DNA of 64,000 nt. Origin: Henriciella sp. Lineage in GTDB: Bacteria; Pseudomonadota; Alphaproteobacteria; Caulobacterales; Hyphomonadaceae. The first letter of the stretch is position 1; every line of letters starts with the position of its first letter. The notes under the pieces were generated by a model. It ran no database searches and was not told the DNA's origin. It saw only the letters and a program-made list of their open reading frames with translations. The position numbers and the translations under genes are program-made. The DNA is taken from assembly GCA_017642885.1 (NCBI GenBank), contig JAEPOM010000001.1, positions 1 through 64,000 of the forward strand, in the 5' to 3' direction. Positions 41,191 to 61,654 of the stretch are shown in pieces.

Positions 41191-41432
41191 TACGCAGCCT
41201 CCTCTGTTTCAAACTCTTTTATTAAAAATGTATCGCCCTCAGCGGAGACAATCTCTAGTGTCGCATTTTCAACAACCGTACCTTCGGCCACGATACCAAA
41301 ACAAAACTCCAGGGCCCGAGACTCTACACACGCTTGGGGGCCTACAGACAGACAAATCCTTTTAACCTGACGGCCTTTGGCATGTTCCGTCACAATGGCG
41401 ACAATGTTCTTTGTCAGCCCTAACTCATGCAT
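41190..41432 (-). CDS. hypA: HypA-like nickel chaperone lacking the zinc ribbon
   Basis: The protein has 80 residues, against about 113 in the family. The N-terminus MHELGLTKNIVAIV with the nickel-binding Met-His-Glu is intact, and the fold continues to LEFCFGIVAEGTV. The segment that normally holds the two CxxC pairs is absent. The sequence goes straight from VVENATLEIV to SAEGDTFLIKEFETEE, which resembles the end of normal HypA just after the zinc ribbon. The loss therefore looks like a clean domain excision. The start overlaps the transporter stop (TAATG), and the stop abuts hypB. Confidence 0.85.
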   Translation of the reverse strand: MHELGLTKNIVAIVTEHAKGRQVKRICLSVGPQACVESRALEFCFGIVAEGTVVENATLEIVSAEGDTFLIKEFETEEAA

Positions 41433-42151
41433 TAGACTACTCCCCAAGCGAGCGGGCCGGTCTCAACCAAAATATAAGTTCCCATGGCAATGGCTAACCC
41501 GGCAGCGGCGGTATTTAATCCGGCATGCATCCATCCCATGCCTTTATCCACCCATTTCAATGGCCAAGCGACGACATATGTCAGTGCCGCCATACCCAAG
41601 ATAGATCCCAGTCCAAAACTTAGGACGTAAAACACCGCTGTGGACACGTTTTGTGTTGCGGCCACCGCTAAAGCCAAAAGACCTGCTGATCCGGCCGCAC
41701 CATGAATAAGGCCAATGAACAAGGCCTTGACTGGAAACCCTTCAGGATGATCGTGGACGTGCGGGTCAAGATTGTGCGTCTCCTTCGAGTCTGCATGCGA
41801 ATGGACATGCATATGTTTCGCGCCATCCTCATGTTGATGACCGTGAAAATGTAACTTCTTTTTGCGAAACCGCCGAAAGACATCCACGCCCAGCACTATC
41901 AGCATGACCCCTACCCCAAACTCCAATGCGGCGCTCATGCGTTCCGTCAACTTCAAACCAAGCAAGATGACACTTGTGCAAATCGCAAACAGCGTAATGG
42001 TGTGGCCAAGCCCCCAAACTGCACCTCGGAAAGCCAAGGATCGTTTGGACTTCTTCGTGTCGGTCATCATCGTGCCTATGGCCGCCAGATGATCCGCTTC
42101 GAGCGCATGGCTCATTCCTATGAGAAACCCGAGAAGTAGAAAACCTATCAC
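41432..42151 (-). CDS. Nickel/cobalt transporter (NicO/UreH-like)
   Basis: This 239-residue inner-membrane protein has about six helices. The first carries HALEADHLAAIG, the His-x4-Asp-His signature of NiCoT/NicO nickel transporters. A cytoplasmic or periplasmic His-rich loop (HFHGHQHEDGAKHMHVHSHADS, shortened here in notation; about residues 98-125) could bind nickel. It probably supplies Ni(II) for the hydrogenase. The start is GTG at 42151, chosen because AGGAGGG sits six bases upstream; it is coupled to hypA (TAATG). Confidence 0.8.
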   Translation of the reverse strand: MIGFLLLGFLIGMSHALEADHLAAIGTMMTDTKKSKRSLAFRGAVWGLGHTITLFAICTSVILLGLKLTERMSAALEFGVGVMLIVLGVDVFRRFRKKKLHFHGHQHEDGAKHMHVHSHADSKETHNLDPHVHDHPEGFPVKALFIGLIHGAAGSAGLLALAVAATQNVSTAVFYVLSFGLGSILGMAALTYVVAWPLKWVDKGMGWMHAGLNTAAAGLAIAMGTYILVETGPLAWGVV

Positions 42152-42161
42152 GTCGACCCTC

Positions 42162-43220
42162 CTAGCAAATTCTTGGCAGTTGCGCGCCGACGAGCATGTC
42201 AACAATGCGCCCACCGCCAAATATGGTCGTCATTTCCACACGCCCTGGTGTGCCTGATGTGGCTCTTCCTATAATTGCCGCATCCTTACCTGCCGGAAGG
42301 TTTCGCATCACGTTCAACGCGACCTCCGCATCTTCTTCAGGAACAAAAACGACCAGAGTGCCTTCATTAGCCAGATAAAGAGGATCTAGGCCTAGAATCT
42401 CGCACACGCCTTTGACCTCTTTTCGAATGGGAAATTGCGTTTCTTCGATAACAATATGCGTGCCTGATGCTTCCGCAATCTCATTCAAGGCGGAGGCCAA
42501 TCCTCCTCTTGTTGCGTCTCGGGCGCAGCGTGTGCTTGGGACGGCTTTTGTGACAGCCTCCATGAGACCAGCCAATGATTGACAATCAGATGTAATGTTT
42601 GTCTTCAAGGCGAGGTCACCGCGCGCTGCCATTATGGCTGCGCCATGATCGCCCAAATAACCGTTTACGATTGCGACATCGCCAGGCTCAACCGCGCCAG
42701 CGTGAAGGAGCACGCCAGGAGGGATAACGCCAATACCTGCTGTCGTAATGAAGACCTTGTCAGCGCTACCGCGTTCCACAACTTTCGTATCCCCGGTCAC
42801 AATCTTTACACCGATTGAATCAGCCGTTTCTTTCATCGTCGCAACAAGGCGTCTGAGCAAAGTTACTTCAGTACCTTCTTCGATAATAAATCCCGCCGAT
42901 AGCCAAAGCGGGCGTGCGCCACCAACAGCAAGATCATTCACAGTTCCGCAGATAGCCAGTTTTCCAATGTCACCGCCAGGAAACTCAAGAGGGTCGACAA
43001 CAAACCCATCAGTTGTGAAGGCGAGTTTCGCGCCGGCTTCAGATAGCGCGGCTTCACTAAGGCGGGCCTGGTCTTCGTGGCTTTCAGGTTCGAAGACGGA
43101 TGTAAAAACATCATCGATTAAATCCCTCATTGCGCGACCACCCCCGCCATGAGCCATGGTGACATATTCAGCGCGCAGCGTTCGCCGTTTTGTCGGTGCA
43201 GATGTCGCAGGTGCTGCCAT
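42162..43220 (-). CDS. hypE: Hydrogenase maturation factor HypE
   Basis: This 352-residue member of the PurM-like ATP-binding family dehydrates a C-terminal thiocarbamate to thiocyanate, giving the CN ligands of the NiFe site. AHGGGGRAMRDLI at the start, the ATP-binding GDTKVVERGSADKVF, and the C-terminal cysteine (LPRIC) that carries the carbamoyl group are all present. The start overlaps the hypD stop (TAATG). The first 20 residues (Ala/Thr-rich) are an extension. Confidence 0.95.
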   Translation of the reverse strand: MAAPATSAPTKRRTLRAEYVTMAHGGGGRAMRDLIDDVFTSVFEPESHEDQARLSEAALSEAGAKLAFTTDGFVVDPLEFPGGDIGKLAICGTVNDLAVGGARPLWLSAGFIIEEGTEVTLLRRLVATMKETADSIGVKIVTGDTKVVERGSADKVFITTAGIGVIPPGVLLHAGAVEPGDVAIVNGYLGDHGAAIMAARGDLALKTNITSDCQSLAGLMEAVTKAVPSTRCARDATRGGLASALNEIAEASGTHIVIEETQFPIRKEVKGVCEILGLDPLYLANEGTLVVFVPEEDAEVALNVMRNLPAGKDAAIIGRATSGTPGRVEMTTIFGGGRIVDMLVGAQLPRIC

Positions 43221-44668: not shown

Positions 44669-47053
44669 CTATTGAGGACTGGGTTGAAGTGAGGCAGCGG
44701 CGATAACCGCTTGACCAAGGGATAGACCGCCATCATTGGCGGGAATTTGTGAGTGGCTTAAAACACGATAGCCTAGGAACTGGAGTTGATCGTGAACGAG
44801 CTGAAACAGCGTTCTGTTCTGGAAGCAGCCCCCACTTAGCGCGATGGTTTCAAATTTTCGATCCGAGCCTGAGAGCTTCGCCACCATTTGCACAATGACA
44901 CTTGCAAGGCCTCTGTGAAAACGCGCGGAAATTGTCCCAATCGGTGTTCCAACGACCAAGTCTCCAAGCATGGCGCGCCAGGCCCCCAAAGGTTCAATAT
45001 AGGGCATCCTTGTTTCCTGATGCAGCGGAATAGAAAATGGATATTTCAAACTGTCCGGCTCATTTAAGGCAGCGGGGTCTATCGACGCTTCAAATAGCAT
45101 GGCGGCATGCCCCTCATAGGACTGCTCATCCCTCAAGAGCCCCGTAATAGCGGCAGCAGCATCAAATAATCGTCCGCATGAGGAGGCAAGCGGCGACTGT
45201 GTGCCGCTAGCCATCATCCCATCAAGGGTCTCTCTTGGGGCCTCGTTCAAGTATTTGAAAATATCGAGGTCGGCAAAATTCATTGCAAACTCAGCCCAAC
45301 CCATTTCTGCGCGAATATGGGCATAAGCATTCCGCCACGGTTGGCGAACGGCCTGTTCTCCGCCGGGAAGTGCGACGGGTTTGAATTGCCCCAGCCTTTC
45401 ATATGAACGGTAGTCACAAGCCATGAATTCCCCACCCCAAACGGTTCCGTCAGGCCCCCACCCTGTTCCGTCCAACGCAACGCCCAAAACCCGGCCTGCA
45501 TCCAGTGGCCAATTGTTCTCGGCCATACAGGATGCGATATGGGCATGGTGGTGCTGGATTTCGATCAACGGAATCTCGCGCTCACGCGACAAGCCCCGTC
45601 CGGCCTCTGAAGATGCGAAGGCAGGATGTGCATCAACTGCGATCGCATTGGGCTTGTGATCGAATAAGTTCTGATAAAGAGACAAGTTCCGAACAGCCTC
45701 GTCTCGGGCAGCCGGATGCTCCATATCCCCCAAATGCTGGCTTAATATCGTTTGACCATTTTTGACCAGACAGAACGTATTTTTGTAGTCCCCCCCCATG
45801 GCCAATAGGTCGTCCACATCGACAAAGCCGTCAGGCAGATCCAATGATTGAGGGGCATAGCCTCTGGCACGTCTGATCACGCGTTCACGTCCAGCTACGA
45901 CACTGGCGACACTGTCATCCACGCGGTTGATAATATCCCGGTCATGCAGACAGGCAAAATCTGCAATCTGTGCCAAGTCTTTCCGGGTTTGTTCATTGGT
46001 TATGCATTGCGGGGCGCCTGATTTGTTTCCCGATGTCATCACGATTGGGCGCTTCATGCGCCGCAACATTAAGTGATGTAAAGGCGTATAAGGGAGCATA
46101 AACCCGAGGCGGTTTAGCCCTGGGGCAACGACCTCAGGAAGGGTGCCCGGTTTGGCTTTCAACAGCACGATTGGAGCCGCAACACTCTTGAGTACCGCTT
46201 CCTCAGCCTCGCTAACCTCGCAATATTGGCGAATGATATCGACCGTCTTTGCCATAAGAGCGAAGGCTTTATCTTTGCGGCCTTTCTTGGCCCGAAGGCT
46301 CGCTACCACGTCAGCCTTTGTCGCGTCGCAAGCTAGATGAACACCGCCAATGCCTTTGATGGCCACAATATGACCCATCATCAACATTCCGCCCGTGGCA
46401 TCAACGTCATCCATCATGGAGAAGGCTTCGCAATTGACTACACCTCCCCCTAGTTTTTCAATCCAGGCTTTCGGGCCACAAACGTGACACGCCACTGGCT
46501 GAGCGTGCATGCGGCGATCTTTCGGATTGTCGTATTCTTGCTGGCAATCGGCGCACATAGAGAATGCCCGCATGCTTGTTTTTTCGCGGTCATAAGGGGC
46601 GCCATCAATGATCGAGAACCGTGGGCCGCAATTTGTGCAATTGGTAAAGGGATATCGATAGCGACGCTCAAACGCGTCAAAGCTTTCAGTATTGCAGTCC
46701 GTACAGCTTGCTGCATCCGGCGTGATCGAGACGCGCATGTCTCCGCCTATTGTGGCGATAATCTCAAAACCGTTGGGAGCATTGTCGCTTATCTGTTCTC
46801 TGGTCAGCCGATCAATTTTAGCCAGTGGCGGTAATGCTTCAGGCAGTGAGGTGACAAACTGGTCAATGCTGTCTCCCCAGAGGTGGATCAAAACACCATT
46901 TGCGGTATTGCACACGTCACCGCGCAAACCGAGATCCGTTGCCAGTTTCCAGACCGTTGGCCGGAAACCGACGCCTTGAACCTGACCGCGAATAAGAATG
47001 GCCTCTCCTTTTATGGGGATGGCATCAACCGCGTGTGCTCCATCGCTCATCAT
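44669..47053 (-). CDS. hypF: Carbamoyltransferase HypF
   Basis: This 794-residue protein converts carbamoyl phosphate to the cyanide precursor of the NiFe site. The domains in order are: acylphosphatase-like (RGQVQGVGFRPTVW, 20-105); a double zinc finger with four Cys pairs (CTDC, CTNCG, CADC, CHVCG; 110-195); YrdC-like (205-390); and a Kae1-like carbamoyltransferase with HHHAHIASCMAEN. All catalytic regions look intact. It overlaps the NHL gene by four bases. Confidence 0.95.
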   Translation of the reverse strand: MMSDGAHAVDAIPIKGEAILIRGQVQGVGFRPTVWKLATDLGLRGDVCNTANGVLIHLWGDSIDQFVTSLPEALPPLAKIDRLTREQISDNAPNGFEIIATIGGDMRVSITPDAASCTDCNTESFDAFERRYRYPFTNCTNCGPRFSIIDGAPYDREKTSMRAFSMCADCQQEYDNPKDRRMHAQPVACHVCGPKAWIEKLGGGVVNCEAFSMMDDVDATGGMLMMGHIVAIKGIGGVHLACDATKADVVASLRAKKGRKDKAFALMAKTVDIIRQYCEVSEAEEAVLKSVAAPIVLLKAKPGTLPEVVAPGLNRLGFMLPYTPLHHLMLRRMKRPIVMTSGNKSGAPQCITNEQTRKDLAQIADFACLHDRDIINRVDDSVASVVAGRERVIRRARGYAPQSLDLPDGFVDVDDLLAMGGDYKNTFCLVKNGQTILSQHLGDMEHPAARDEAVRNLSLYQNLFDHKPNAIAVDAHPAFASSEAGRGLSREREIPLIEIQHHHAHIASCMAENNWPLDAGRVLGVALDGTGWGPDGTVWGGEFMACDYRSYERLGQFKPVALPGGEQAVRQPWRNAYAHIRAEMGWAEFAMNFADLDIFKYLNEAPRETLDGMMASGTQSPLASSCGRLFDAAAAITGLLRDEQSYEGHAAMLFEASIDPAALNEPDSLKYPFSIPLHQETRMPYIEPLGAWRAMLGDLVVGTPIGTISARFHRGLASVIVQMVAKLSGSDRKFETIALSGGCFQNRTLFQLVHDQLQFLGYRVLSHSQIPANDGGLSLGQAVIAAASLQPSPQ

Positions 47054-48228
47054 GGCTCAATCCGCCACAATAAAATCCGGTTGTTTCCGCTATCGGAGAC
47101 GACGGCCATCCCGTCATGGCAGGTCAAACCATAAGGCCAACAAACACTATCGCGCCTGGCGACACCCCAGCCATTATCGCCTTTTGATGCAAAATCAGGT
47201 TGTGCCATCAATCGATTGGCGTCTGAGTTCATCGCGCAATCTTGCCAACCCAGAAGTCTCGAATTTGCTGTATCAGCGACCAAAAGCTGATCGCCATTGA
47301 CGGTGATCGCATAAGGCATATTCAAAGCCTTTGCGTCAGGATAATATGCTTTTTGATTGTGGTCGCATTCTGAGAAGTCTGACTGCCCTAATACGAGATC
47401 ACACGCTTGGCCGTTTTGTGTCGGAAACCCAGTCCAAAGCATGACTCGATTGTTCCCTGCATCCGTGACCGCGAAATGGCCATTCCAGAAAGCGGTCGCA
47501 TGTGGCCAGCGCATGCCAGCGGGACCGACCTCTTGACCCGCATTTTCATGTCGCTCATCAAAAGTCGCCTGACCTATGACCAAATCGGCAGGTTGCCCTG
47601 TCACTTCAGGATCATTCCAGACCAGAACGCGCCGGTTCCCGCTATCACTAACCACGAGCCGGCCATCAATTTCCGCGACCCCATAAGGCCAGTGCATCGA
47701 ATTCGCCTGAGGTTGATCCTTGCCGAAATTGGCAAGGACATCATTCGCATTGATCTGTCCCAATATAATATCGGCAGGTTGATTGTCATCGACTGGCACG
47801 GTTTTCCAAAGCAAGACCCGGTGGTTCCAAGCGTCAGCAACAGCAAGCCCCTTCCCCCATGGGCTGACCCCCGTTGGCACGTTTAAAGTTGAGGCGTTCG
47901 CAGCGCCCTTGGCATTGCGTCCTTCGGAAACGAAGTCAGGTTGACCGATCAATAAATCAGCTGGCTGGTTATCGACCTTTGGACCAGTTTTCCATCCCAG
48001 CAAGCGATGATGGCCGGTATCAGCGACCCATAAGGAGCCGTCCGGAAGCAGGCAGGCGCCACGAGGGCCAAACAGGACAGACGGACTGGGTGCATTTGAT
48101 ACTGCAAATTCAGTCTCGACCCATCCCAATACAATCTCGGGCCCGTCCTTATTGAGCAAACTTGCCCCGGTCGTCACCGAGCCTGGTGCTTTTACCGATG
48201 GGGAAAGAGAGATCTTCGCTGTGCTCAT
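47050..48228 (-). CDS. NHL-repeat beta-propeller protein
   Basis: This 392-residue protein has about six repeated blades of the form GKGLAVADAWNHRVLLWK, VVSDSGNRRVLVWN, AVTDAGNNRVMLW, VADTANSRLLGW and VVSDSGNNRILLW. There is no signal peptide, so it is probably cytoplasmic. NHL proteins accompany group 2a hydrogenase genes in other bacteria (recalled); a scaffold or assembly role is plausible. It is coupled to the NifU-Rieske gene and to hypF by four-base overlaps. Confidence 0.88.
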   Translation of the reverse strand: MSTAKISLSPSVKAPGSVTTGASLLNKDGPEIVLGWVETEFAVSNAPSPSVLFGPRGACLLPDGSLWVADTGHHRLLGWKTGPKVDNQPADLLIGQPDFVSEGRNAKGAANASTLNVPTGVSPWGKGLAVADAWNHRVLLWKTVPVDDNQPADIILGQINANDVLANFGKDQPQANSMHWPYGVAEIDGRLVVSDSGNRRVLVWNDPEVTGQPADLVIGQATFDERHENAGQEVGPAGMRWPHATAFWNGHFAVTDAGNNRVMLWTGFPTQNGQACDLVLGQSDFSECDHNQKAYYPDAKALNMPYAITVNGDQLLVADTANSRLLGWQDCAMNSDANRLMAQPDFASKGDNGWGVARRDSVCWPYGLTCHDGMAVVSDSGNNRILLWRIEP

Positions 48229-49085
48229 CTCGTCAGTCGCACTTCAACAATATTTCGTGTCACACGAACGCCATGCGGCTGTAATTGAACTTCAGGAGCT
48301 GTCAGGCATTCTCCGCTTTCGAGCGAATACTGAAATCCGTGGAATGGACACGTAATCAAACCCTCGTCGATAACGCCGTCATCCAGACGAAACCCCATAT
48401 GAGCGCACGAATTATTGAAACAGGTTATCTTATCGCCGAAGCGCGAGAGCAGAACGGACTGGTCGTCAATATCGAGTGTTTGCGTCGTCCCATCTGGCAG
48501 ATCTTTTAGATTGACGGTTTCGGTCCAGCCATCTTTCTGGAATGAGGCAAAAGGAGATACAAATTGAACACCTTCTCCACCGCCCATGCCTTTGACTTGC
48601 TGAATTTCAGTCGCTTCGGGCACATGGGTTTGTATGGCCGTCTTTACACCGGAGTAGAATGTCAGCGCCGAGGCCGGACATCCATCACAAGCACCCAGAA
48701 ACCGAACCACAACCTTAGGGAGTTCAACTTTTACCAGTTCGACATCACCGCCATGACTGGCAAGCATCGGGCGAATGGTCTCAAGAGCCGCTTCAACCCT
48801 CTCAAACAAAGAGGCTCTCAATATTCCATGTCGTCGCAAGACCGTATAAACGATTTCGTCCGATGCAGCAGCCTTCAATGCAGGTCCAAATTCCGGCACC
48901 TCAGTCAGTAATTTGATCAGACGCTTAAATGCCTCGGCGTTCAAGGCATCAATCGCTTCCCCTCTGGCATGTGCAGCATTGCGTTGCTCTTCAGGCCAAG
49001 TATCAGCCAATTGCTCAAGTGCTGCAATGTCACTCAACAGAGATGGCAGATCTTTTTCAACTGATTCTTCGGGGGACGTCGCCAT
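48225..49085 (-). CDS. NifU-Rieske fusion protein
   Basis: This 286-residue cytoplasmic protein has a helical N-terminal part (1-85). It is followed by a NifU C-terminal-like domain with the cluster motif GACDGCPASALTF (about 132-144), then a Rieske domain with CAHMGF and CPFHGF (about 220-250). It may transfer Fe-S clusters or electrons for the hydrogenase. NifU-Rieske proteins are known next to cyanobacterial-type uptake hydrogenases (recalled). They are natural candidates for an electron carrier from HupS. Confidence 0.85.
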   Translation of the reverse strand: MATSPEESVEKDLPSLLSDIAALEQLADTWPEEQRNAAHARGEAIDALNAEAFKRLIKLLTEVPEFGPALKAAASDEIVYTVLRRHGILRASLFERVEAALETIRPMLASHGGDVELVKVELPKVVVRFLGACDGCPASALTFYSGVKTAIQTHVPEATEIQQVKGMGGGEGVQFVSPFASFQKDGWTETVNLKDLPDGTTQTLDIDDQSVLLSRFGDKITCFNNSCAHMGFRLDDGVIDEGLITCPFHGFQYSLESGECLTAPEVQLQPHGVRVTRNIVEVRLTR

Positions 49086-49091
49086 TTACGA

Positions 49092-49313
49092 TTACCTGTA
49101 TTTGAGGTCTTTATAGAGAATTGGCAGAGTAAACCCGCTAACAGCGCCACCAACGACTGCCGCGATCACCACCGAAACAAATTGCCCCAATCCTACGAGG
49201 ATCACCGCCCCTAACAGGGTGGCCAGAATACCGCGCAAGAACACCTGAGTGTAATTTGCAAACAGGCGACCGGTTACAAACAGTTTGACCGAGTCCATGA
49301 CCATAGAAAACAT
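49092..49313 (-). CDS. Small two-helix membrane protein of the hydrogenase locus
   Basis: This 73-residue protein has an N-terminal amphipathic segment followed by two transmembrane helices (about 25-45 and 48-65). It starts one base after the stop of the next small membrane gene, so the two are made together. No family is recognised. It could anchor the otherwise soluble hydrogenase to the membrane, since no cytochrome b gene is present. Confidence 0.65.
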   Translation of the reverse strand: MFSMVMDSVKLFVTGRLFANYTQVFLRGILATLLGAVILVGLGQFVSVVIAAVVGGAVSGFTLPILYKDLKYR

Positions 49314-49314
49314 G

Positions 49315-49515
49315 CTAAACCCCTGCCAAAATCGTAAGTGCAAATATGCCGATAATCACAGCGGCGGCGCCACCGACCAAGCCATATAGACCGCCCATGC
49401 TAGCAGCCATTTCTGCGCCGAGGGCATCCTTACCAATGATCCAGCCCGACATAGCACCTCCCGCTAAAGAGGCAGCAATGCCTCCGAGTATCGCTATTAT
49501 TAGTAGTGTTGACAT
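49315..49515 (-). CDS. Small Gly/Ala-rich membrane protein of the hydrogenase locus
   Basis: This 66-residue protein has two helices rich in small residues (GGIAASLAGGAMSGWIIG and LYGLVGGAAAVIIGIFALT), a pattern that favours tight oligomers. It may form a membrane platform with the next gene product. AGGAT precedes its start. No known family. Confidence 0.65.
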   Translation of the reverse strand: MSTLLIIAILGGIAASLAGGAMSGWIIGKDALGAEMAASMGGLYGLVGGAAAVIIGIFALTILAGV

Positions 49516-49537: not shown

Positions 49538-50542
49538 TTATTGATTGATTTTGTGTACGTTTGAGAGTGGCTGCGAACTACCAAACATCTCGGTTTCCAA
49601 TTCTTCCAAAGCGCCGCTGACAGCTTCGACTTTGTGAATGTCCCCCAGCTTGTTAAAGACAGAACGAGCTTCACGATAAAGACGAATTGCCTCCTTCAAG
49701 TTTTCCGGATTGCCTGCCTCTGGATTTTCAGGGTCATCTGGCAAGTTCGCGATGCAGTTCGCCTTGTTAGAAATCGTGTTTGCGTACTCGGCAGGCGTAT
49801 CTTCCAAAGTTCTTACACGCAGCGCTTCATCATAGGCCTCAATTGCCCGAAAACCGTTTTCGACCCTATGACTTGAAGAGACATACTGGAGCGCATTACC
49901 AAGATTGTTCTGCAGCATCGCATATTCACTTGGGTTGTCGACAATAGTTACGACCTTCAACCCCTCTTCAAAAGCTTGCACGGCAAGAGCCTCCCGCATT
50001 TTTGAACGCTCATCCGAAAACGGAATTGACATAAAGGCTGTCGCGAGATTGTTCTGCAGAATGGCAAATTCTGCGGGATGCTTTTGTGCATTGAAGGTGC
50101 GCAAAGAACGTTGATAGGCGGAAATGGAATCGGTGATTGGCGCCCGGTTGTAGGAAGCCAAATTTTGCAAAATGAGGCCCAAATTCATTTCGGCTTCGGC
50201 AACTTCTTCTGACGTCCCCTGAATCCGCAAAGCCTCCAAAGCGCTGTTCATGGAATCACGAGCGCCTTCAAGATAACCGGGGTCATTCGATGGAACGGAC
50301 ATTTGGGCGGTTGCCATTCTAGCCTTGATCCGAGCCGAAAGAAGACCTTCGGTTTCAGGGCATAAATGCACCGCGTCATCGTAAAGCTTTATTGCCTCAA
50401 TCAAGTCATCAAGTGATTTAGGCTTTTGCTGCATGCCCATGGCGATTTCCATCAGCATTTCGGCTTTTTCGGCGTCACTCGCACTTGCCGAGGCGACAGC
50501 CTCTCGGGCCGCTTTGGCTTCTTCTTGTGATCGGCTCACCAT
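49538..50542 (-). CDS. TPR-like repeat protein of the hydrogenase locus
   Basis: This 334-residue all-helical protein has repeats that resemble TPR units in the 160-290 part (FAILQNNLATAFMSIPFSDE, YAMLQNNLGNALQYVSS, YANTISNKANCIANLP). The N-terminal 60 residues are a charged coiled segment. It is probably an assembly or docking protein for hydrogenase maturation. It lies 22 bases upstream of the small Gly/Ala-rich protein. It is unrelated in detail to the XRE-TPR protein at 25.6 kb. Confidence 0.75.
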   Translation of the reverse strand: MVSRSQEEAKAAREAVASASASDAEKAEMLMEIAMGMQQKPKSLDDLIEAIKLYDDAVHLCPETEGLLSARIKARMATAQMSVPSNDPGYLEGARDSMNSALEALRIQGTSEEVAEAEMNLGLILQNLASYNRAPITDSISAYQRSLRTFNAQKHPAEFAILQNNLATAFMSIPFSDERSKMREALAVQAFEEGLKVVTIVDNPSEYAMLQNNLGNALQYVSSSHRVENGFRAIEAYDEALRVRTLEDTPAEYANTISNKANCIANLPDDPENPEAGNPENLKEAIRLYREARSVFNKLGDIHKVEAVSGALEELETEMFGSSQPLSNVHKINQ

Positions 50543-50656: not shown

Positions 50657-50962
50657 TTATGATGAAGGAATGGTGCAAATCAAAGCGGCCTGAGATGGGT
50701 CCCACTCGGCTGTCACGTCATCGCAAACCCACTCCGCTAGGCCGTTTGCGGCAAAAACGTCTTGCGCTGCAACAACGCGGTCTCCTTGAGCATTTCTGAT
50801 TTTCAGGAGGCTACCCCCAGCCCTTACATGCTGAACCGGCATAATGAGCAATTGGTCTTCACGGATGATCGCAATTATAGCCTCGATCCCCTGAAAGTAG
50901 GTTTCATAAACACCGACAGGAACATAGACAGAGCCGCGCCTTATAGAAATTGTCGCACTCAT
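50657..50962 (-). CDS. Small unknown protein of the hydrogenase locus
   Basis: This 101-residue, probably cytoplasmic beta-rich protein (SIRRGSVYVPVGVYETYFQGIEAIIAII, later LIMPVQHVRAGGSLLKIRNAQGDRVV) has no Cys cluster. It follows the DUF3422 gene by five bases. I do not recognise the family. A hydrogenase-specific accessory role is inferred from position only. Confidence 0.65.
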   Translation of the reverse strand: MSATISIRRGSVYVPVGVYETYFQGIEAIIAIIREDQLLIMPVQHVRAGGSLLKIRNAQGDRVVAAQDVFAANGLAEWVCDDVTAEWDPSQAALICTIPSS

Positions 50963-50967
50963 CCGGT

Positions 50968-52194
50968 TTAATCCCTCTCCGTGCGGTTTTGAACTGTGAG
51001 ATCCAGAACGCGCCGGCGTGCTCGGCGCGTCAGGATAAAAGACAAAGTGATTATGACGGGCACTGATAGTGTAACTAAGAGGCTATCGCTTATGGTAAAA
51101 TCTGGTAGCCCTTTTAAGACATAGCTCACAAGCCCGATGCCATAGTAAGAAATAGCAGCCACAGACAGCCCCTCAACCGCTTGCGACAAGTGAACTTGTT
51201 GGCGTGTTCTGTGCTCCATCGAAGAAAGTAGCTTTTGATTTTGAGCTTGAGACATCTGGTCAAGCTGAGTACGGGCCAACTCCATCGCCGATCGTACTGT
51301 CAAGGAAGTCTGCTCCAAACGTCGATCGAAAGCCTGTATTGTTCCCATAGCCGGCGCAAGCCTATGCTCAATGAAGCCCCCCAAGGTCTGGCGTTGGCCA
51401 ATAGGCACCTCACCCAAACTATCAAGACGTGAACGCACAATGTTGTAATAAGCATTCGAAGCCGCAATACGGTAACGTGTCTTGGATTGAAGACTCCCCA
51501 CTTCAGCGAGAATGATCGCCAAGCTATCTATCGCCCCCCCAAGATCTTCACGAGTGACAATAGAGAGGTCCAAAACAGCAGCCTCCGCACGCCCCTCAAG
51601 CTCTCTCAGAGAGTCTGAAGCCATCCGAACGACTGGCAAAGCAAGTAGGGAAATCGATCGATAGATCTCGAGATCAATTAGGCGCTTAACCAATCGCCCG
51701 CGTCCAAACCCATCATCAAATCCACCGGTCACATAGTAAGGCACCAACCCATCACTATTTCGGAATGAGGTTGTAACCACGACCCCATCAAAAAATGTCC
51801 CACCGCCGAACAATCTTTGCTCCGGAAACTGAGTTGCCATATCTACATTTGATTTCTGCGATAGGGTAATCTTGATACCGGATAGCTGCCTTGCTGGTGC
51901 GCTGCGGATCAAGTCTAGTATTTCAGAAGCTGGAGCGGTTTGGCCGACATAAGTTATCGATACAAACTCCGTGTGCCTCTCAAATCTTATTATGCCATCA
52001 TTACGTTGAATGATCTGATGACGTTCTGCTGGATTAAACTCTTCTGACCACGTTCCTGAGCTACCCTCGATTTCCTGGAGAGCCCAGCACCAAACCTGAG
52101 CTTCTGAAAAATCGATGTCCAGTGGTGGTCGTGAGTGAAATTCGGCGTCTATGGCCGCTCGGTCCTGATGCTGTTGAAAGATCCCAGAACTCAA
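50968..52194 (-). CDS. DUF3422-family membrane protein
   Basis: This 408-residue protein starts with the DUF3422 pattern (AIDAEFHSRPPLDIDFSEAQ, then FERHTEFVSITYV). It has a middle region rich in helices (RIAASNAYYNIVRSRLDSLGE) and two C-terminal transmembrane helices (about 340-360 and 372-392). DUF3422 is a family of unknown function found in proteobacteria. Its presence inside a hydrogenase operon is notable. The start is TTG at 52194, preceded by a run of G. Confidence 0.8.
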   Translation of the reverse strand: MSSGIFQQHQDRAAIDAEFHSRPPLDIDFSEAQVWCWALQEIEGSSGTWSEEFNPAERHQIIQRNDGIIRFERHTEFVSITYVGQTAPASEILDLIRSAPARQLSGIKITLSQKSNVDMATQFPEQRLFGGGTFFDGVVVTTSFRNSDGLVPYYVTGGFDDGFGRGRLVKRLIDLEIYRSISLLALPVVRMASDSLRELEGRAEAAVLDLSIVTREDLGGAIDSLAIILAEVGSLQSKTRYRIAASNAYYNIVRSRLDSLGEVPIGQRQTLGGFIEHRLAPAMGTIQAFDRRLEQTSLTVRSAMELARTQLDQMSQAQNQKLLSSMEHRTRQQVHLSQAVEGLSVAAISYYGIGLVSYVLKGLPDFTISDSLLVTLSVPVIITLSFILTRRARRRVLDLTVQNRTERD

Positions 52195-52212: not shown

Positions 52213-52719
52213 CTATGCATCATTCTGCACCGAAATCTCAGGCCATTTTAGCTCCGGCATGCAAGCCAGCTTGTGAACCTGCTTGATCACTTCTTTGGCC
52301 GCGTGGGCAACTTTTTCTGTCAGCCCAATGTGCATTTGCAGTGATTGCGCCTCGATGAGAAAGACTTTCACATGCTTTGGGAACTCATCCTCGTAAATAC
52401 GCTTCCCGGCATAAAGAGCATGATCCCAGCGAAAATCATGCAAGTTCAGACTTTGCTCTTTAGGCGCTGCGAGCACCTCCCCTGGAACCTCATATATGGC
52501 CCCCGGATTACCTTCCGGCGCGCGAGCATCCACGACAATCAAATGCGTGGAACCTCGGGCATGATACATAACCCCCATACCATCTGTACCGGCGTCATAG
52601 AGCTGCACATATTCGGGCAACTCAACATCGCGCAGAACATTGATAACGGTTGCTCCAACGCCGTCGTCACAACGATTGGGGTTTCCGCAGCCAATAATCG
52701 CCAGTTTTAAATTCGCCAT
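52213..52719 (-). CDS. hupW: Hydrogenase maturation endopeptidase (HupW/HybD-like)
   Basis: This 168-residue protein cleaves the C-terminal extension of the large subunit after nickel insertion. It begins with the family motif AIIGCGNPNRCDDGVG and has the nickel-sensing Asp positions (YDAGTDGMGV, VVDARAPEGNPG) and the His of FRWDHALYAG. The large subunit here has a 16-residue tail after its last motif, consistent with a dedicated protease. The ATG at 52719 lies inside the end of the upstream gene; one at 52734 is an alternative. Confidence 0.88.
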   Translation of the reverse strand: MANLKLAIIGCGNPNRCDDGVGATVINVLRDVELPEYVQLYDAGTDGMGVMYHARGSTHLIVVDARAPEGNPGAIYEVPGEVLAAPKEQSLNLHDFRWDHALYAGKRIYEDEFPKHVKVFLIEAQSLQMHIGLTEKVAHAAKEVIKQVHKLACMPELKWPEISVQNDA

Positions 52720-53039
52720 AGTCGGCAAGACCATTCCGGTTCCACAGGAAGCATCAGCTCGGGCAGATCGCAAAATTTGTTATGGGTCTGATAGTACATG
52801 CAAGTTTCACATGGCTGTTCAATATCGTGCGCTTCAATCGTATAGTCCGTGAACCCGGAAATGATCAGTTTCTTATCCAGATCATCGCCAGCTTCGTTTT
52901 GCAGTCGCGTGATAAACTCGTTGACCATTTCGGACGTTTCCGCACGCGGAAAGACCTCAGTCTTAAGGCCTGCCTTTAGCTTCCCAGCTATGACACTTCT
53001 TAGAGCAGTATTACATCCAGGTTTCATATTGTCGTCCAT
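52707..53039 (-). CDS. HiPIP-like four-Cys protein, second of a tandem pair
   Basis: The protein has 110 residues. An N-terminal helical part is followed by a C-terminal motif with Cys at 77, 80, 90 and 105 (C-x2-C-MYY-x6-C-DLPEL-x9-C-RLWRI). Aromatic residues after the first pair and the short spacing to a final Cys-x-x-Trp resemble high-potential iron-sulfur proteins. It shares the motif with the gene just upstream. It probably binds a [4Fe-4S] cluster or Zn. No signal peptide is seen, so it is cytoplasmic like HupSL. Confidence 0.7.
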   Translation of the reverse strand: MDDNMKPGCNTALRSVIAGKLKAGLKTEVFPRAETSEMVNEFITRLQNEAGDDLDKKLIISGFTDYTIEAHDIEQPCETCMYYQTHNKFCDLPELMLPVEPEWSCRLWRI

Positions 53040-53047
53040 CGGCACGC

Positions 53048-53413
53048 TCAAATGCGCCAAAGCCGGCACCACCATTCCGGCTCGGCAGGCAGATTAAGTT
53101 CTGGAAGATCACACCAACGTCTGTGAACGAGATAGTACATGCATTCCTGACATCTCATCTCATCCTCGCCATGTGGCGAAAGCTTCCAACCGCTTACATC
53201 CAATTTGGCGCGCAATTGGTTTGCGTCCATGGCGCGCAACTCATCCAGGAGAGCAGAAAACTCTCTATCGGTCTCAGGAAACGGCTCTAACTGAGTTGTG
53301 AGCCCGTCTTTGAAAGCATCCTCAATCATTTTGATGAGGGTGTCATGATCAGCATTTGCAGGTGCAACGCCGTACTTATCCTTGTATTCCTCTGCAGATG
53401 TTTTTGTGGTCAT
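53048..53413 (-). CDS. HiPIP-like four-Cys protein, first of a tandem pair
   Basis: The protein has 121 residues. Cys88, 91, 101 and 116 form the same pattern as in its neighbour (C-x2-C-MYY, C-DLPEL, EPEWWC-RLWRI). The N-terminal 80 residues are helical and differ from the neighbour, so the pair has diverged except for the cluster motif. It lies between hupL and the protease gene in the operon. Electron transfer from HupS is the likely role, or protection of the cluster during assembly; both are inference. Confidence 0.7.
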   Translation of the reverse strand: MTTKTSAEEYKDKYGVAPANADHDTLIKMIEDAFKDGLTTQLEPFPETDREFSALLDELRAMDANQLRAKLDVSGWKLSPHGEDEMRCQECMYYLVHRRWCDLPELNLPAEPEWWCRLWRI

Positions 53414-53506
53414 GATTTTTTCTTCAGATATGTTTTAGACCCTAAATGGAAAGTCTGGAGCGAAGATCAAAATCAACCTTCGCTCCAGAGATGTCACCAG
53501 GTAGGC

Positions 53507-55105
53507 CTAAGCTGTTCGGAAACGCGCCAATTCTTCACCGGTTTTGGCGTCATGCGCATGCACCGTACACACAAGACAACTGTCATAAGAGCGGCAAACA
53601 TGGCCCACCTCGACAGGGTCAGTTGGATCAGCAATTGGCGTTCCAATCAAAGCCTCTTCGATCGGGCCGCGTTCCCCTGCTGTGGAGCGTGGGCCAACAT
53701 TCCAAGTTGTCGGCGCAATGATCTGATAGTTTTTTATTTTACCTTCTTTGATTTCGACCCAATGGCAAAGCGCACCGCGAATAGCCTCTGTTGCACCCCA
53801 ACCGCGACCGTCCTTTTCCGTTGGCTTAATATACCAAGGATCAGTCAATTTGAACTCGCGCAAGCAACGCTCCGCTTCCCGATAAAGCTTGCAAAGCTCA
53901 TGCATGCGGGCAAAGTGACGGAGCAAAGCAGATGGGCCGCCCATCTTGCGGTACATATCCAAAATCAATGGATCGGTATGTTGCCAAGCCTCGCCATGAG
54001 ATCCGCCAGCTACGAGTTGACGGGCAAGTGGTCCAGCTTCCAGACGGCCATTTTCTTCATGGCTCACAGCTGTGCCCCAAGAGTATTTACCGTCAATATC
54101 AATATCGTTTTTCTGGATCGGATTGGTGGTCCTGTCAAATGGATGCACCATATCGCTGCCCTCATCATACCAAGCATGCAAGGTATCTTCGCGGGCAAAT
54201 TTTTGATCCATAATTTTATGGGTATCTGTCGCACCGTCATACACACCAGACTTCATGATAAGGGCAGCATTTCTGCCTTCAATCGTTGGCTTTTGATATT
54301 TGTCTTCGTGCGGAAGATATCCCCAAGTTACAAACTTGTTGTGACCCCGACCGTAATTCTGAAGACCGATGTCCATCCCCATTCGCCAGTAGAGACCTAG
54401 GTCTGAATTGGCATGCTCAGGCTTCTCGTCGAGCCACGCAATGAAGTCATCATAGGATTTGATCTCCTCATAACGCTCCATGGAACACCCGAACCAAAGT
54501 GTTTCGATCCAATTTTTGCGGAAGTGTTCCAGGATCGCGATAGAGCGTGTGACGTCGGTAAGTGTTGGCGCACACATAACCCCGCCCGGAACCATGAATG
54601 AGGAATGCGGCCACTGCCCACCCAAGAGAGCATAGATTTCAACCGGGCGCCCTGAAATGGTGACACCAGCTTCATAAGACGTGCCTGTGAATGGTGAGTA
54701 TCTTTTGACCGCTTCTTCGAAATACTGACTCTTGGAATAATTCTTATTGGTAAAATCAATCATGAAGAGGCCATAGTGATGGCGCGGCAATGATTGCAGC
54801 GATTCAACAATCTGTCCCAGATTACGAGCCAGAATAGCGTTTCGCGGAACCTCTGTTCCCCATGCCGTATCGAGCGCCCACGCTGCGCAGGTCAAATGTG
54901 ACGCGCCGCAAATACCGCAGGCACGTGGTGTGACCACAAGACCCGCTTGGGGATCTTTGTCTTTTAGAATGACCTCAAAGCCGCGGAAAAGCTCCGCATG
55001 CGTCCAAGCATTGGTAACAACGCCGTCTTCAATATCGACGCGAACATCAAGATCGCCTTCAACACGGCCAACGGGTGAAATATCGAGTGTTTGAACTTGT
55101 GACAT
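53507..55105 (-). CDS. hupL: NiFe uptake hydrogenase large subunit (group 2a, cyanobacterial type)
   Basis: This 532-residue catalytic subunit holds the NiFe(CN)2CO site. The N-terminal ligand motif is RACGICGASH (about 62-71) and the C-terminal one is SYDSCLVCTVH, followed by a 16-residue tail that the protease removes. The sequence style throughout (HAELFRGFEVILKDKDP, GLFMIDFTNKNY) matches cyanobacterial HupL and its group 2a relatives. A good AGGAG ribosome site lies upstream; hupS ends 22 bases before. Confidence 0.95.
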   Translation of the reverse strand: MSQVQTLDISPVGRVEGDLDVRVDIEDGVVTNAWTHAELFRGFEVILKDKDPQAGLVVTPRACGICGASHLTCAAWALDTAWGTEVPRNAILARNLGQIVESLQSLPRHHYGLFMIDFTNKNYSKSQYFEEAVKRYSPFTGTSYEAGVTISGRPVEIYALLGGQWPHSSFMVPGGVMCAPTLTDVTRSIAILEHFRKNWIETLWFGCSMERYEEIKSYDDFIAWLDEKPEHANSDLGLYWRMGMDIGLQNYGRGHNKFVTWGYLPHEDKYQKPTIEGRNAALIMKSGVYDGATDTHKIMDQKFAREDTLHAWYDEGSDMVHPFDRTTNPIQKNDIDIDGKYSWGTAVSHEENGRLEAGPLARQLVAGGSHGEAWQHTDPLILDMYRKMGGPSALLRHFARMHELCKLYREAERCLREFKLTDPWYIKPTEKDGRGWGATEAIRGALCHWVEIKEGKIKNYQIIAPTTWNVGPRSTAGERGPIEEALIGTPIADPTDPVEVGHVCRSYDSCLVCTVHAHDAKTGEELARFRTA

Positions 55106-55126
55106 AATAATAACTCCTGATGTCGC

Positions 55127-56092
55127 TTATACGACGAAAATATCTTCTTCAGCCCAAGCTGGTGAAGCTCCCTTCGCGGCGGCCGTTAGCTTCATATAAC
55201 CCTTCTTGTTCACGCCGGTGGGCATGTCCTTTGGTACGCCCATAACCGTTTGTGTCTTGAAGACCGTACCGGGTGCCAAATCGAAGAACGGAAACTCAGG
55301 TTCGGTACAGCCCAGGCACGGCATACCAGCACGTGTCTTGGAAGACTGACGGTTCCAGAGAATTCTATTACATGGACTATGTGTCATCGGTCCCCGACAC
55401 CCAAGATCATAGAATAAGCAACCCTTGCGCTGACCGAAGGCCGTCGTCGAGACCTTGTAAGCAAAGTGCATGTTTCTCGTGCACCCCGTCTGCGTAAAGC
55501 TTGAGAAGAAGGTCTTAGGCCGTTGGAATTCGTCCAAGGTTAAGTCCCCTGCTCGTCCTGATGCAACGGCCACGAGGATTTGTGTAACCCAATCAGGGTG
55601 CGCCGGGCAGCCTGGAATATTGATGACAGGAAGGCCAGCTTTCGAAACGTAATCTTTGCCAAGCAATCCGCCATCATGATCTCTTTTCAAGAATTGAAGC
55701 CCGGTGCTTTCACTTGGGTTTGGCGCCATGGCAGGAATGCCGCCATAAGTCGCGCAATCGCCAATCGCTACAACAAATTGTGCCACGTCGCATAATTCTT
55801 TGACCCAGTCTTTCATTGGGCGACCGCCAAAACGGTTCCAATTGCCAGTACCGTCTGGCGCGTTCACGATTGATCCTTCGAACACAAAGATGTCCAATTG
55901 GATTTCGCCTGAGACACATTTCTTCAAAATGTCCTGAACCTGATCGCCAAGTTCCAGTCCCAATGAGGGTTGCCAAAGAATATTGATGCCAAAGTCTGTA
56001 ACCAAGTCACAGGCGCTCGGCTCCTCAGCATTGAGAAATGACATTGTATTGCCGGAACACGCTCCGCCTTGAAGCCAGAGAAGATTTGCCAT
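55127..56092 (-). CDS. hupS: NiFe uptake hydrogenase small subunit (group 2a, cyanobacterial type)
   Basis: This 321-residue iron-sulfur subunit passes electrons from the NiFe site. There is no twin-arginine signal, so the enzyme stays in the cytoplasm, as in cyanobacteria. The N-terminal cluster motif reads GGACSGNTMS: the usual second Cys of the proximal cluster is Asn. This substitution is known in cyanobacterial HupS. The remaining ligands (GDCATYGG, PGCPAHP, TGCTRN, RKGCLFYDLGCRGP, PCLGCTEP) are intact. It is first in the operon; AAGGGA precedes the ATG. Confidence 0.95.
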   Translation of the reverse strand: MANLLWLQGGACSGNTMSFLNAEEPSACDLVTDFGINILWQPSLGLELGDQVQDILKKCVSGEIQLDIFVFEGSIVNAPDGTGNWNRFGGRPMKDWVKELCDVAQFVVAIGDCATYGGIPAMAPNPSESTGLQFLKRDHDGGLLGKDYVSKAGLPVINIPGCPAHPDWVTQILVAVASGRAGDLTLDEFQRPKTFFSSFTQTGCTRNMHFAYKVSTTAFGQRKGCLFYDLGCRGPMTHSPCNRILWNRQSSKTRAGMPCLGCTEPEFPFFDLAPGTVFKTQTVMGVPKDMPTGVNKKGYMKLTAAAKGASPAWAEEDIFVV

Positions 56093-56319: not shown

Positions 56320-56538
56320 CTAGCCGTTCCGGTTTCCGCAGACTGGGCACTCAACCTCAGCCCTTAGGCCATACCAGACCCCCTCGCATGGCGTGCACCA
56401 ATGCCCGACGGCATGACTGGGTTTGTTTGATAGCGCCGACAGTAAAGAGGTATGGCCTAGCTCTTTGGCTGGCTGGTTTCGATTCGAGCCTGGCAATCTT
56501 GAGAATGGAAAACGTGTGACATTCGTCTCTGTTGGCAT
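56320..56538 (-). CDS. Small zinc-ribbon protein between the regulator and hupS
   Basis: The protein has 72 residues. The C-terminal part is WCTPCEGVWYGLRAEVECPVCG, two CxxC pairs 12 residues apart (Cys48, 51, 64, 67 approximately), a treble-clef or zinc-ribbon pattern. The spacing is close to that in the zinc ribbon of HypA, which the local HypA lacks. The N-terminal 45 residues are low complexity. CAGG lies upstream of the ATG. It follows the regulator gene by about 40 bases on the same strand. No family assigned. Confidence 0.5.
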   Translation of the reverse strand: MPTETNVTRFPFSRLPGSNRNQPAKELGHTSLLSALSNKPSHAVGHWCTPCEGVWYGLRAEVECPVCGNRNG

Positions 56539-56577: not shown

Positions 56578-58020
56578 TCAACCTTGGCTCAACTCATAAC
56601 GCTTGATCTTATTTGCAATTCCCACCCGCGATACGCCGAGTTGTTCTGCAGCCCGTTTTTGGTTCCAACGATGACGCTCAAGCGCTTTGGAGACCACATG
56701 CTTTTCTAATTTCTCTACCATTTCCTTGAGAGTTGCGCCATCGACCTCAAAGTCCTCCGTGGTGGATTTATCAATATTGATACTGGCAATGTTTGGAGAA
56801 AGATGCCGGGTGAGGATATAGCTATCCGTGCCTGCGATCGTGACAGCCCTTTGGATCTCCATTTGAAGCTCGCGCACATTTCCAGGATAATTGTGGAGAC
56901 TAAGTCGCTTCAGCGCGTCCATTGCAATGCCCAACAAATGTCGACCAGACACTTCTGACGCACGCTCCAAGAAATGAGTCGAAAGAGCCGGAACATCTTC
57001 TAGGCGCTGCCTTAAAGGTGGGATGTTAAGCTCAATCCCTTTGAGACGATAATATAGATCTCGCCGAAAAGTGCCTTTGACAACCAATTCCTCAAGTGGC
57101 CGATTACTCGCAGCGATGACCCGCACATTGGAATAGAGCGTTTCATCCGACCCGAGCGGCTTGACCTCCCCTTCCTGCAAAAATCGCAGCAAGCTGACCT
57201 GGAACGCAGGAGATACTTCAGAAATTTCATCCAGGAAGACGGTCCCGCCATCAGCAGCGCGGAAAAGGCCCAAACGCGGCGTCAATGCGCCCGAATAGGC
57301 CCCCGCCACATGGCCAAACAATTCAGAATGCAAAACATCATCGGGAAACCCTCCACAATTTTGGACATGCATAGGAGAGTTTTTACGATCAGAATTGTAG
57401 TGCACCGCGCGCGCCATTAGTTCTTTGCCGGTGCCCGTTTCGCCCTGTATCAAGATTGGAATTTCTGTCGCTGCGGCTTGTCGAGCCAAGGCGCACAGCT
57501 CATCCATTTTGGGGCTGACATAGATAAGTTTTTCAAATCTGGACCAAGGGCTCTTTATATCCTCAGATTTTGTTGGCTTGAAGATATGGTCATCTATCGA
57601 CAGTTTTAGCTCTCGAGATAAAAGCCTATGACGACGCGAAAGCTCACTTATCTCAAGCGCGCGTTTGACGACGATCTTGAGTTGTTGTGCCTGAACAGGC
57701 TTTACCAGATACATAAATGTTGCGGCTCGAGATGCCAGATCGACCGCCTCGGCGGATATCTCCCCATCCGTAATCAAGATACGCGCAGTAGCTGGAGCCC
57801 TCACCCTCAAACGCGTTAAAATATTATCAGATGAGTCTTCAAGACTGTCATCGTCACAAATCAATAAATCACACTCAACGTCACTCATTGCGCTTTGTGC
57901 TTCCCGCTCGTTTTCGAACGTAATCAAGCGACAATCATTCTCGGCAACTAAGACTGAATGTGCAGCCTTGGTCAGCTGCTCATCAGACGTCAATAGGATA
58001 ATCGTGTTGTACTGCGACAA
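56578..58020 (-). CDS. NtrC-family response regulator controlling hydrogenase genes (HupR/HoxA-like)
   Basis: The protein has 480 residues. The receiver (1-115) has acidic residues in LLICDDDS and the conserved Lys in VKPVQ. The AAA+ domain (about 160-400) has QGETGTGKELMARAVH, the sigma54-contact loop GAYSGA in place of GAFTGA, and DGGTVFLDEISE. A Fis-type HTH ends the protein (NQKRAAEQLGVSRVGIANKIKRYEL). The start is TTG at 58020, with AAGGAAG upstream. It is expected to be phosphorylated by an unlinked kinase; none is in the window. Confidence 0.85.
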   Translation of the reverse strand: MSQYNTIILLTSDEQLTKAAHSVLVAENDCRLITFENEREAQSAMSDVECDLLICDDDSLEDSSDNILTRLRVRAPATARILITDGEISAEAVDLASRAATFMYLVKPVQAQQLKIVVKRALEISELSRRHRLLSRELKLSIDDHIFKPTKSEDIKSPWSRFEKLIYVSPKMDELCALARQAAATEIPILIQGETGTGKELMARAVHYNSDRKNSPMHVQNCGGFPDDVLHSELFGHVAGAYSGALTPRLGLFRAADGGTVFLDEISEVSPAFQVSLLRFLQEGEVKPLGSDETLYSNVRVIAASNRPLEELVVKGTFRRDLYYRLKGIELNIPPLRQRLEDVPALSTHFLERASEVSGRHLLGIAMDALKRLSLHNYPGNVRELQMEIQRAVTIAGTDSYILTRHLSPNIASINIDKSTTEDFEVDGATLKEMVEKLEKHVVSKALERHRWNQKRAAEQLGVSRVGIANKIKRYELSQG

Positions 58021-58044
58021 ATAAACTTCCTTATCATTGTGCAA

Positions 58045-60241: not shown

Positions 60242-61654
60242 TCAATCACTAAATTTAAGCCCGTCCGGCACCAGATGAGCAATCTTCATCAATTCGTCCC
60301 GCCGGTAGGCCATGGACCCACCGTCTCCATAGGCTGGTCGATCTGTCTTATGCCCCATCAGCGTGCAGCGTAATCCATAATCCAATCCAGCTTCGAGCAT
60401 TCGTTTCTCGAAAGCGTGTCGGAACGAGTAGATTACGTGGTCTGTTGTTGGAAACAGCCCCCTTTGCCGAAACGCCTTCATCAGATTGGCGGATACGAGT
60501 TCGCCGCGATCACGGTAATGCTCGAAACCTTCCGGAGCTGCTCGCATCGCTTCAAGCGCGACGCCGACCAGTGGAATATCGCGTATGGATGTCTCGGTTT
60601 TGATTTCACGGTTCTGCCGAGGGCGGATGCGAATAAAAGGGACGTTGGCTTTTAGCTTTATGTCTTCTGGCAGGAGATTGCAGATTTCACTGGTTCTGCA
60701 ACCTGTTTCGATCAGCACATAAATGATGCACCGTAGCTCCCATCGCAGATCATCAAAGATGCCGGGCGCGAGAATTTTGCTGCGAACCCAGTCATCCTCG
60801 AACGGTGGCACGTCGACCCGAGATTCGCCCTTGAAGAACATTTTCCGAAAAGGATTGAGCCGCTCTTCGTCGCCCTTGTGGGAGAAGTAGGCCTCGTGCA
60901 GCGTTCGCATATTGCCAATATGCCGATTGGCCGTGTTCGGCTTGGCCGGTTTCTCACCTTCCTCGCGTGGGATCATCCGCTCCATCCACCAGTTGCGGTA
61001 AGACAGTGCATCGTCACGTGAGATCGCAGCTATGGGCAGATCGCCGATCACATCAATGAAGTAATTGATTGAGGTCCGCTTGGTCTTTTCCCAGGAGTAT
61101 TTCTGTTTGGGCGACTTGTTGTACTGCTCGTCGAAAGCGATTTCATCGAGATAGAGCTGGAAGGCTTCAGACACGGTTGTCTTGTCGTCTTCAGCGACAG
61201 GTGCAGGCACTGCGCCGAGCAAGGCTTCAGCGTCCTGCATACTTGGTGGGTGCGCTGGAGAGGTGCCCCATTCGAGCAACTGTATGCGTTGCATCAAGTC
61301 AGCCAACTCAGCAGAAGCGCCTAAGGTTTCAGCGGGTGCATAGGCAAACCCTCTCGCCATGGCCCGGGCATTCGCTGACTCGTAGCGTTTTGCTGCCGCG
61401 GCCTTAGCCGTATCATTCGCGCTGTCTCCTTCCACCTCTGCCAAGAGAAGCGAGGTCCAATAAGCATCATCTGCTTCGACGAGTGCGTCACGTCTCATGC
61501 GCGCCACTTTCAAGACTTCAGTATCAAGCCCGACACGCACAAAGGTTCGAGGATCGACATGTTTGAATTTGGCCGGGACCCGCCGATGGTAGTGCCAGCG
61601 TTCGCCTCTAAGAAGCAGGAACTGGTCGGAATGCCTGAGAACTGTCATCCTCAA
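60242..61654 (-). CDS. Tyrosine-type integrase of a tRNA-targeting genomic island
   Basis: This 470-residue protein has an N-terminal arm-binding part, a core-binding SAM-like domain (residues 165-270) and a catalytic domain. The catalytic Arg is in ETGCRTSEICNL, and a His-x-x-Arg box reads SFRHAFEKR, followed by LMGHKTDR. The final Tyr is likely within AYRRDELMK. It is oriented with its start near the tRNA-Asp 3' end (134 bases away), which is typical of islands that integrate there. It looks intact. Confidence 0.9.
   Translation of the reverse strand: MRMTVLRHSDQFLLLRGERWHYHRRVPAKFKHVDPRTFVRVGLDTEVLKVARMRRDALVEADDAYWTSLLLAEVEGDSANDTAKAAAAKRYESANARAMARGFAYAPAETLGASAELADLMQRIQLLEWGTSPAHPPSMQDAEALLGAVPAPVAEDDKTTVSEAFQLYLDEIAFDEQYNKSPKQKYSWEKTKRTSINYFIDVIGDLPIAAISRDDALSYRNWWMERMIPREEGEKPAKPNTANRHIGNMRTLHEAYFSHKGDEERLNPFRKMFFKGESRVDVPPFEDDWVRSKILAPGIFDDLRWELRCIIYVLIETGCRTSEICNLLPEDIKLKANVPFIRIRPRQNREIKTETSIRDIPLVGVALEAMRAAPEGFEHYRDRGELVSANLMKAFRQRGLFPTTDHVIYSFRHAFEKRMLEAGLDYGLRCTLMGHKTDRPAYGDGGSMAYRRDELMKIAHLVPDGLKFSD

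Follow-up and report, generated by a model that had tools for sequence, protein, structure and literature searches.

For enzymes of the HucM type, a structure explains how soluble group 2a [NiFe]-hydrogenases deliver electrons to the respiratory chain. According to the available text on Huc from Mycobacterium smegmatis (PMC10017518), HucM is a small extra protein, encoded beside hucSL and upstream of hucS, that forms a coiled-coil hydrophobic tube and links the soluble hydrogenase to the respiratory chain. DUF1641 proteins, the family of HucM (see below), also appear in excerpts of other reports, as partners of a menaquinone-linked formate dehydrogenase (PMC8808070) and as the first product of the operon of a Huc-type hydrogenase from Parageobacillus (PMC12976888). 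The accessible parts of two studies on Nostoc (Agervald et al. 2008, PMC2408588, and its 2011 follow-up, PMC3126725) propose a role in HupS maturation for a run of small genes between hupSL and hyp, and those of a study on Acidithiobacillus ferrooxidans (Kucera et al. 2020, PMC7735108) place a putative high-potential iron-sulfur protein (HiPIP), DN052_04130, beside hupLS and suggest that the missing connection to ubiquinone is provided by this HiPIP, by a Rieske protein, or by the two together. Here we analyse a window of 64,000 nucleotides from Henriciella sp. (contig JAEPOM010000001.1, positions 1 to 64,000), containing a hydrogenase gene cluster with two small genes, P1 and P2, between hupL and the maturation protease gene. 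We tentatively propose that P1 and P2 are cytosolic HiPIP-like [4Fe-4S] proteins that dock on HupSL and relay electrons from HupS towards the membrane; as two small unclassified proteins, they offer a handle on the electron route in a third type of group 2a cluster.

The locus shares with that of A. ferrooxidans, as described in those excerpts, a candidate iron-sulfur protein gene near group 2a hupLS whose operon also includes a NifU-Rieske gene, although a single gene is named there instead of a pair; judging from gene position, DN052_04130 and P1/P2 may belong to the same family. The Nostoc run asr0689-alr0693 corresponds by kind, in its published description as far as available, to the window's genes for two small membrane proteins, TM1 (49315..49515, 66 amino acids) and TM2 (49092..49310), each with two hydrophobic stretches, and for the TPR-like, NifU-Rieske and NHL proteins, and the gene order given for Nostoc punctiforme also matches this run from TM1/TM2 to NHL. 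The TPR-like protein is thus a counterpart by kind of alr0691 and Npun_R0367, and TM1 one of asr0689/asr0690, both by kind and by the N. punctiforme gene order, whereas no P1/P2 is described in the available account of the asr0689-alr0693 run. We dropped the idea that asr0689/asr0690 were themselves P1/P2, since that account gives them two membrane regions and they fit TM1/TM2 by kind and place. In the accessible portions of the open-licence literature we found no account of the paired P1/P2 family, its clades, its lack of overlap with HucM, or its structure.

In a sequence search of the PDB, the best solved relative of HupL (53507..55105, Pfam NiFeSe_Hases) was the large subunit of the group 2a hydrogenase Huc from M. 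smegmatis (7uus_A, E 2.2e-187), followed by other hydrogenases at E 6.5e-61 and above. HupS (55127..56092) matches Pfam Oxidored_q6 and NiFe_hyd_SSU_C, shows GACSGNT near its start and has no export signal as read from its sequence, with the same start region in the HupS of cyanobacteria and Mycobacterium. Because HupL is closest to Huc and cyanobacterial HupL, and HupS lacks an export signal, we classify HupSL by sequence as a group 2a hydrogenase, as the initial annotation did, with the cytosol as its most likely location. The cluster also holds the accessory genes of this group, for the maturation protease, NifU-Rieske protein, NHL protein and hypF.

The P genes are linked to this hydrogenase. 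Scanning 84,980 species' genomes with P2 patterns, short exact stretches that distant relatives may escape, retrieved 50 loci. The gene hupL adjoins the P genes in 49 of them, and in the other (L047) P2 stands at the very start of the contig, with the remaining cluster genes after it. An occurrence mostly away from hydrogenase genes, which the initial annotation had named as contrary to its reading, is not what these loci show. P1 and P2 occur in tandem in 45 of the 50 loci, a recurrence indicating that the pair is not due to chance; two of the remaining contigs stop after P2, and three loci (L047, L048 and L052) have a single copy, which is P2. Likewise, P1, P2, TM1 and TM2 are all present in 44 loci and a single P gene with TM1/TM2 in three; the other three (L024, L032 and L036) lack TM1/TM2, their contigs stopping before the place of those genes.

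The same linkage was evident in genome samples. The P1/P2 profile matched four of 398 Pseudomonadota genomes, exactly those with a HupL at least 80% identical to that of the window; a HupL relative at E 1e-30 was found in 49, the other 45 being at most 45% identical. An overlapping sample of 260 Alphaproteobacteria contained the P family once, in the window's own genome. Among 72,556 plasmid records, P2 was found on 12, and these are also the records with a HupL of about 80% identity; Sphingopyxis alaskensis RB2256 is a named plasmid-borne case of this P-type cluster. Five further plasmid records have a HupL about 55% identical and a HupS 65–70% identical. The P1/P2 profile found no member on four of these plasmids, searched whole, and neither tblastn nor the inspection of a 19.6-kb stretch found any on the fifth, from Hymenobacter.

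Close group 2a hydrogenases without P1/P2 occur in cyanobacteria. The 244 sampled genomes of Cyanobacteriota, the phylum of L052, included 32 with a HupL 71–80% identical to that of the window and one more at 43%. Only one of these 33, Cyanobacteria bacterium SZAS LIN-3 (G398), which holds L052, has the P family; no P1/P2 was found in the 31 with a HupL of 71–78% identity, and in 15 stretches taken from these HupS is 70–77% identical. TM1 or TM2 relatives appear in five of the 15 stretches (L148, L152, L153, L158 and L160); the others may be too short to contain them. One cyanobacterial stretch (L148, from G475) carries two hupSL copies a few kb apart, with one hupL in two pieces, and in many other cyanobacterial hupL matches the alignment begins only around residue 167, which would fit a gene that is interrupted.

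HucM was not found together with P1/P2 in this sample. The HucM gene corresponds to DUF1641, as a protein encoded upstream of hupS on a Mycobacterium intracellulare plasmid matches the solved HucM (E 2.9e-34). DUF1641 also occurs on the Thermus and Sulfobacillus plasmids, and hence on three of the five plasmids without P1/P2; it was found in none of the eight searched genomes with the P family, nor in the 31 cyanobacterial genomes searched. The window's genome likewise has no DUF1641. A three-sequence HucM profile found nothing in the 50 P loci and showed no relation to the P1/P2 profile. However, the division between P-type and HucM-type clusters is not complete, because the Bacteroidota plasmids (Runella and Hymenobacter) carry neither P1/P2 nor DUF1641.

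We then placed these cluster types on a quick HupL tree of 72 rows (44 P-type, 17 cyanobacterial, three HucM-type, two Bacteroidota and six outgroup), omitting identical rows and matches of fewer than 480 query residues. Each cluster type occupies one side of a branch, with moderate support for the P type (88) and for cyanobacteria (84), and 97 for the HucM type; the tree carries a program warning about long branches meeting. Together, our results suggest at least three types of group 2a clusters: with HucM, with a small membrane pair but without P1/P2, and with a small membrane pair plus P1/P2. Relatives of the NifU-Rieske and NHL proteins are likewise encoded in loci of the types without P1/P2. 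TM1/TM2 are present in 47 of the 50 P-type loci and in some cyanobacterial ones, whereas the five plasmid loci that lack P1/P2 yielded neither; they are candidates for the membrane anchor of group 2a hydrogenases lacking HucM. Comparison of HupS between the P-type (49 rows) and cyanobacterial (17 rows) branches gave 14 diagnostic sites under the cut-offs chosen, mostly mild, and no clear docking surface.

P2 (53048..53413) encodes 121 amino acids, with an N-terminal helical part and a C-terminal HiPIP-like part, C-x2-C-x9-C-x14-C, and P1 (52707..53039) encodes its paralogue; both lie on the minus strand between hupL and the protease gene, as initially annotated. In a search with P2, P1 aligned over residues 26–121 with 43% identity, and when 33 P2 and 27 P1 sequences were aligned, 16 columns proved invariant, the majority in the cysteine part. 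As invariant G37, L38 and G75 and several near-invariant columns precede that part, the N-terminal portions are not unrelated, contrary to the initial view that only the C-terminus is common to both. The four-cysteine motif itself is real: C-x2-C-x9-C-x14-C-x5-stop is kept in 47 of 48 P1 and 52 of 53 P2 sequences from the loci found, that is, in 99 of 101, the two exceptions being one substitution and one ambiguous residue. The first annotated start of P1, at 53075 (122 amino acids), is less likely than the ATG at 53039: because the latter lies just past the P2 stop, and the longest version allowed by our script is 103–115 amino acids in 42 of 48 P1 relatives, P1 probably begins at 53039 and has 110 amino acids. 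In a tree of 60 rows, with four long end branches, a single branch separates every P1 from every P2 (support 100/100), which indicates that the doubling is old.

Pfam and NCBIfam scans assigned no family to P1 or P2, nor did they reveal any DNA-binding or enzymatic domain; a simple hydropathy scan found no hydrophobic stretch of 19 residues in either. The HiPIP family (PF01355) had no match at E 1 among the window proteins, and was not among the 21 Pfam families matched by any of the 60 P1/P2 members. Nevertheless, P1/P2 share with HiPIPs the cysteine order, C-x2-C followed by two single cysteines near the C-terminus, the aromatic residues around the cysteines and a further aromatic residue at the third position past the last cysteine, and all four cysteines align with those of HiPIPs in a joint profile. 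They differ in spacing (x9/x14, versus x8–13/x12–15 in 12 HiPIPs), in having W-x-C instead of GWC and an extra conserved helical N-terminal part, and in lacking a Pfam match and any export signal to the periplasm visible in the hydropathy scan.

The fold comparison rests on the P2 model, as that of P1 was built without an alignment (predicted local distance difference test, pLDDT, 40.8) and was not used. A Foldseek search of the PDB with the P2 model had no hit at E 0.001 and listed no HiPIP at all; the HiPIP match comes only from a second-look aligner, in which HiPIPs are the only listed matches. No zinc protein is listed; a clear match to a zinc ribbon was the outcome that the initial annotation named as arguing against its HiPIP idea. 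That annotation, which took the pair for HiPIP-like carriers or cluster-assembly proteins, is partly supported. Searching the PDB by sequence, with P1, P2 or the profile as query, retrieved designed helical repeats and other hits that we read as chance, including the lowest E-value, for P1 (5e-5, to a designed repeat in which no stretch reached the threshold individually) and a chance-level match of the cysteine part of P2 to the zinc finger of UHRF1 (E 0.7).

Our tentative proposal of an electron relay builds on the homology of P1 and P2, their two old clades, their linkage to this HupSL branch, the absence of HucM from the genomes searched, the conserved cysteines and the likeness to HiPIPs; the cluster, the cytosolic location, the docking and the relay itself would be its predicted elements. 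Each protein would combine its helical N-terminal part with a four-cysteine part holding one [4Fe-4S] cluster, and the pair would dock on HupSL and carry electrons from HupS towards the membrane. There, TM1/TM2 and the NifU-Rieske protein would be the candidate partners, followed by the quinone pool. With HucM missing, contact with the membrane would most naturally be made by TM1/TM2, and P1/P2 could plausibly mediate between them and the enzyme by means of their clusters. A narrower version, which we regard as rather doubtful, is that P1/P2 form a dedicated two-step wire of cytosolic HiPIP-fold proteins in place of the quinone-shuttling stalk of HucM. If true, this would be, to our knowledge, the first HiPIP-like carrier to operate intracellularly and as part of a hydrogenase complex.

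Alternatively, P1/P2 could serve HupS specifically, as factors that assemble or protect its iron-sulfur clusters by supplying, keeping or shielding them before HupL binds. The position of their genes between hupL and the protease gene, in one run with NifU-Rieske and hypF, agrees with this, as does the maturation role proposed for the Nostoc genes. The available text, however, describes the products of the latter as membrane, TPR, NifU and NHL proteins rather than as members of the P1/P2 family, and four HucM-type or Bacteroidota plasmids do without P1/P2, yet such loci have NifU-Rieske and NHL. We favour a role in the electron route over one in building HupS because cyanobacterial genomes have close HupSL without P1/P2, which leaves assembly a rather unlikely function; the difference between P-type and cyanobacterial hosts may instead lie in the host electron chain.

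It is also rather improbable that P1/P2 are structural subunits whose cysteines bind zinc or an inert cluster, and which replace HucM as a scaffold of HupSL but take no part in electron transfer. P1/P2 and HucM never co-occur in our sample, HucM holds the Huc oligomer together in the available account (PMC10017518), the strong aromatic conservation could serve packing, and the UHRF1 hit, at chance level, is to a zinc finger. Conversely, HiPIPs and no zinc protein emerge from the P2 fold comparison, P1/P2 lack a hydrophobic stretch that could anchor them in the membrane, and TM1/TM2 are better candidates for an anchor. That P1/P2 are hydrogenase regulators or redox sensors (e.g. for O2 switching), with the cluster as sensor, is very improbable, because only their position in the gene cluster and the likely iron-sulfur cluster speak for it, they have no DNA-binding or enzymatic domain and the cluster already contains an NtrC-type regulator.

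The remaining genes complete a minus-strand cluster in the order NtrC-type regulator, 72-amino-acid protein, hupS, hupL, P2, P1, hupD, DUF3422, 101-amino-acid protein, TPR-like, TM1, TM2, NifU-Rieske, NHL and hypF. The NtrC-type sigma-54-dependent regulator (56578..58044) matches a gene that in L101 and L116 bears the annotation sigma-54 dependent regulator. Upstream of hupS, a 72-amino-acid protein with two CxxC pairs (56320..56538) has no Pfam match and has a relative in 41 of the 50 P-type loci. The protease gene hupD (52213..52719; TIGR00072, E 7.8e-34) has a likely ATG, chosen by reading, at 52719, overlapping the 3' end of P1. The 101-amino-acid protein (50657..50962) has relatives in 48 loci, the other two contigs stopping short, and the TPR-like protein (49538..50542), with weak Pfam TPR matches, in 47. 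The NifU-Rieske protein (48225..49085) combines a NifU C-terminal domain (Pfam, 2.1e-22) and a Rieske [2Fe-2S] domain (1.2e-16), and is followed by the NHL-repeat protein (47050..48228; Pfam NHL, 4.7e-25) and hypF (44669..47053), which matches by tblastn genes annotated as hypF in the plasmid loci L101, L104 and L116. The DUF3422 gene (50968-52194) lies inside the cluster, between hupD and the 101-amino-acid gene, in the window and in L003; a relative is directly upstream of the NtrC-type regulator in L004, L014, L015-L017, L044, L045, L050 and L116.

At the far end of the cluster there are hypB-like and nickel-transporter-like genes, named by eye (40315-42220). Two transposase-like genes and one integrase-like gene, also named by eye, are distributed over the two flanks (37883-38713, 39146-39964 and 60242-61654). 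Because of these flanking genes and the presence of a like cluster on 12 plasmid records, the hydrogenase cluster may move between strains.
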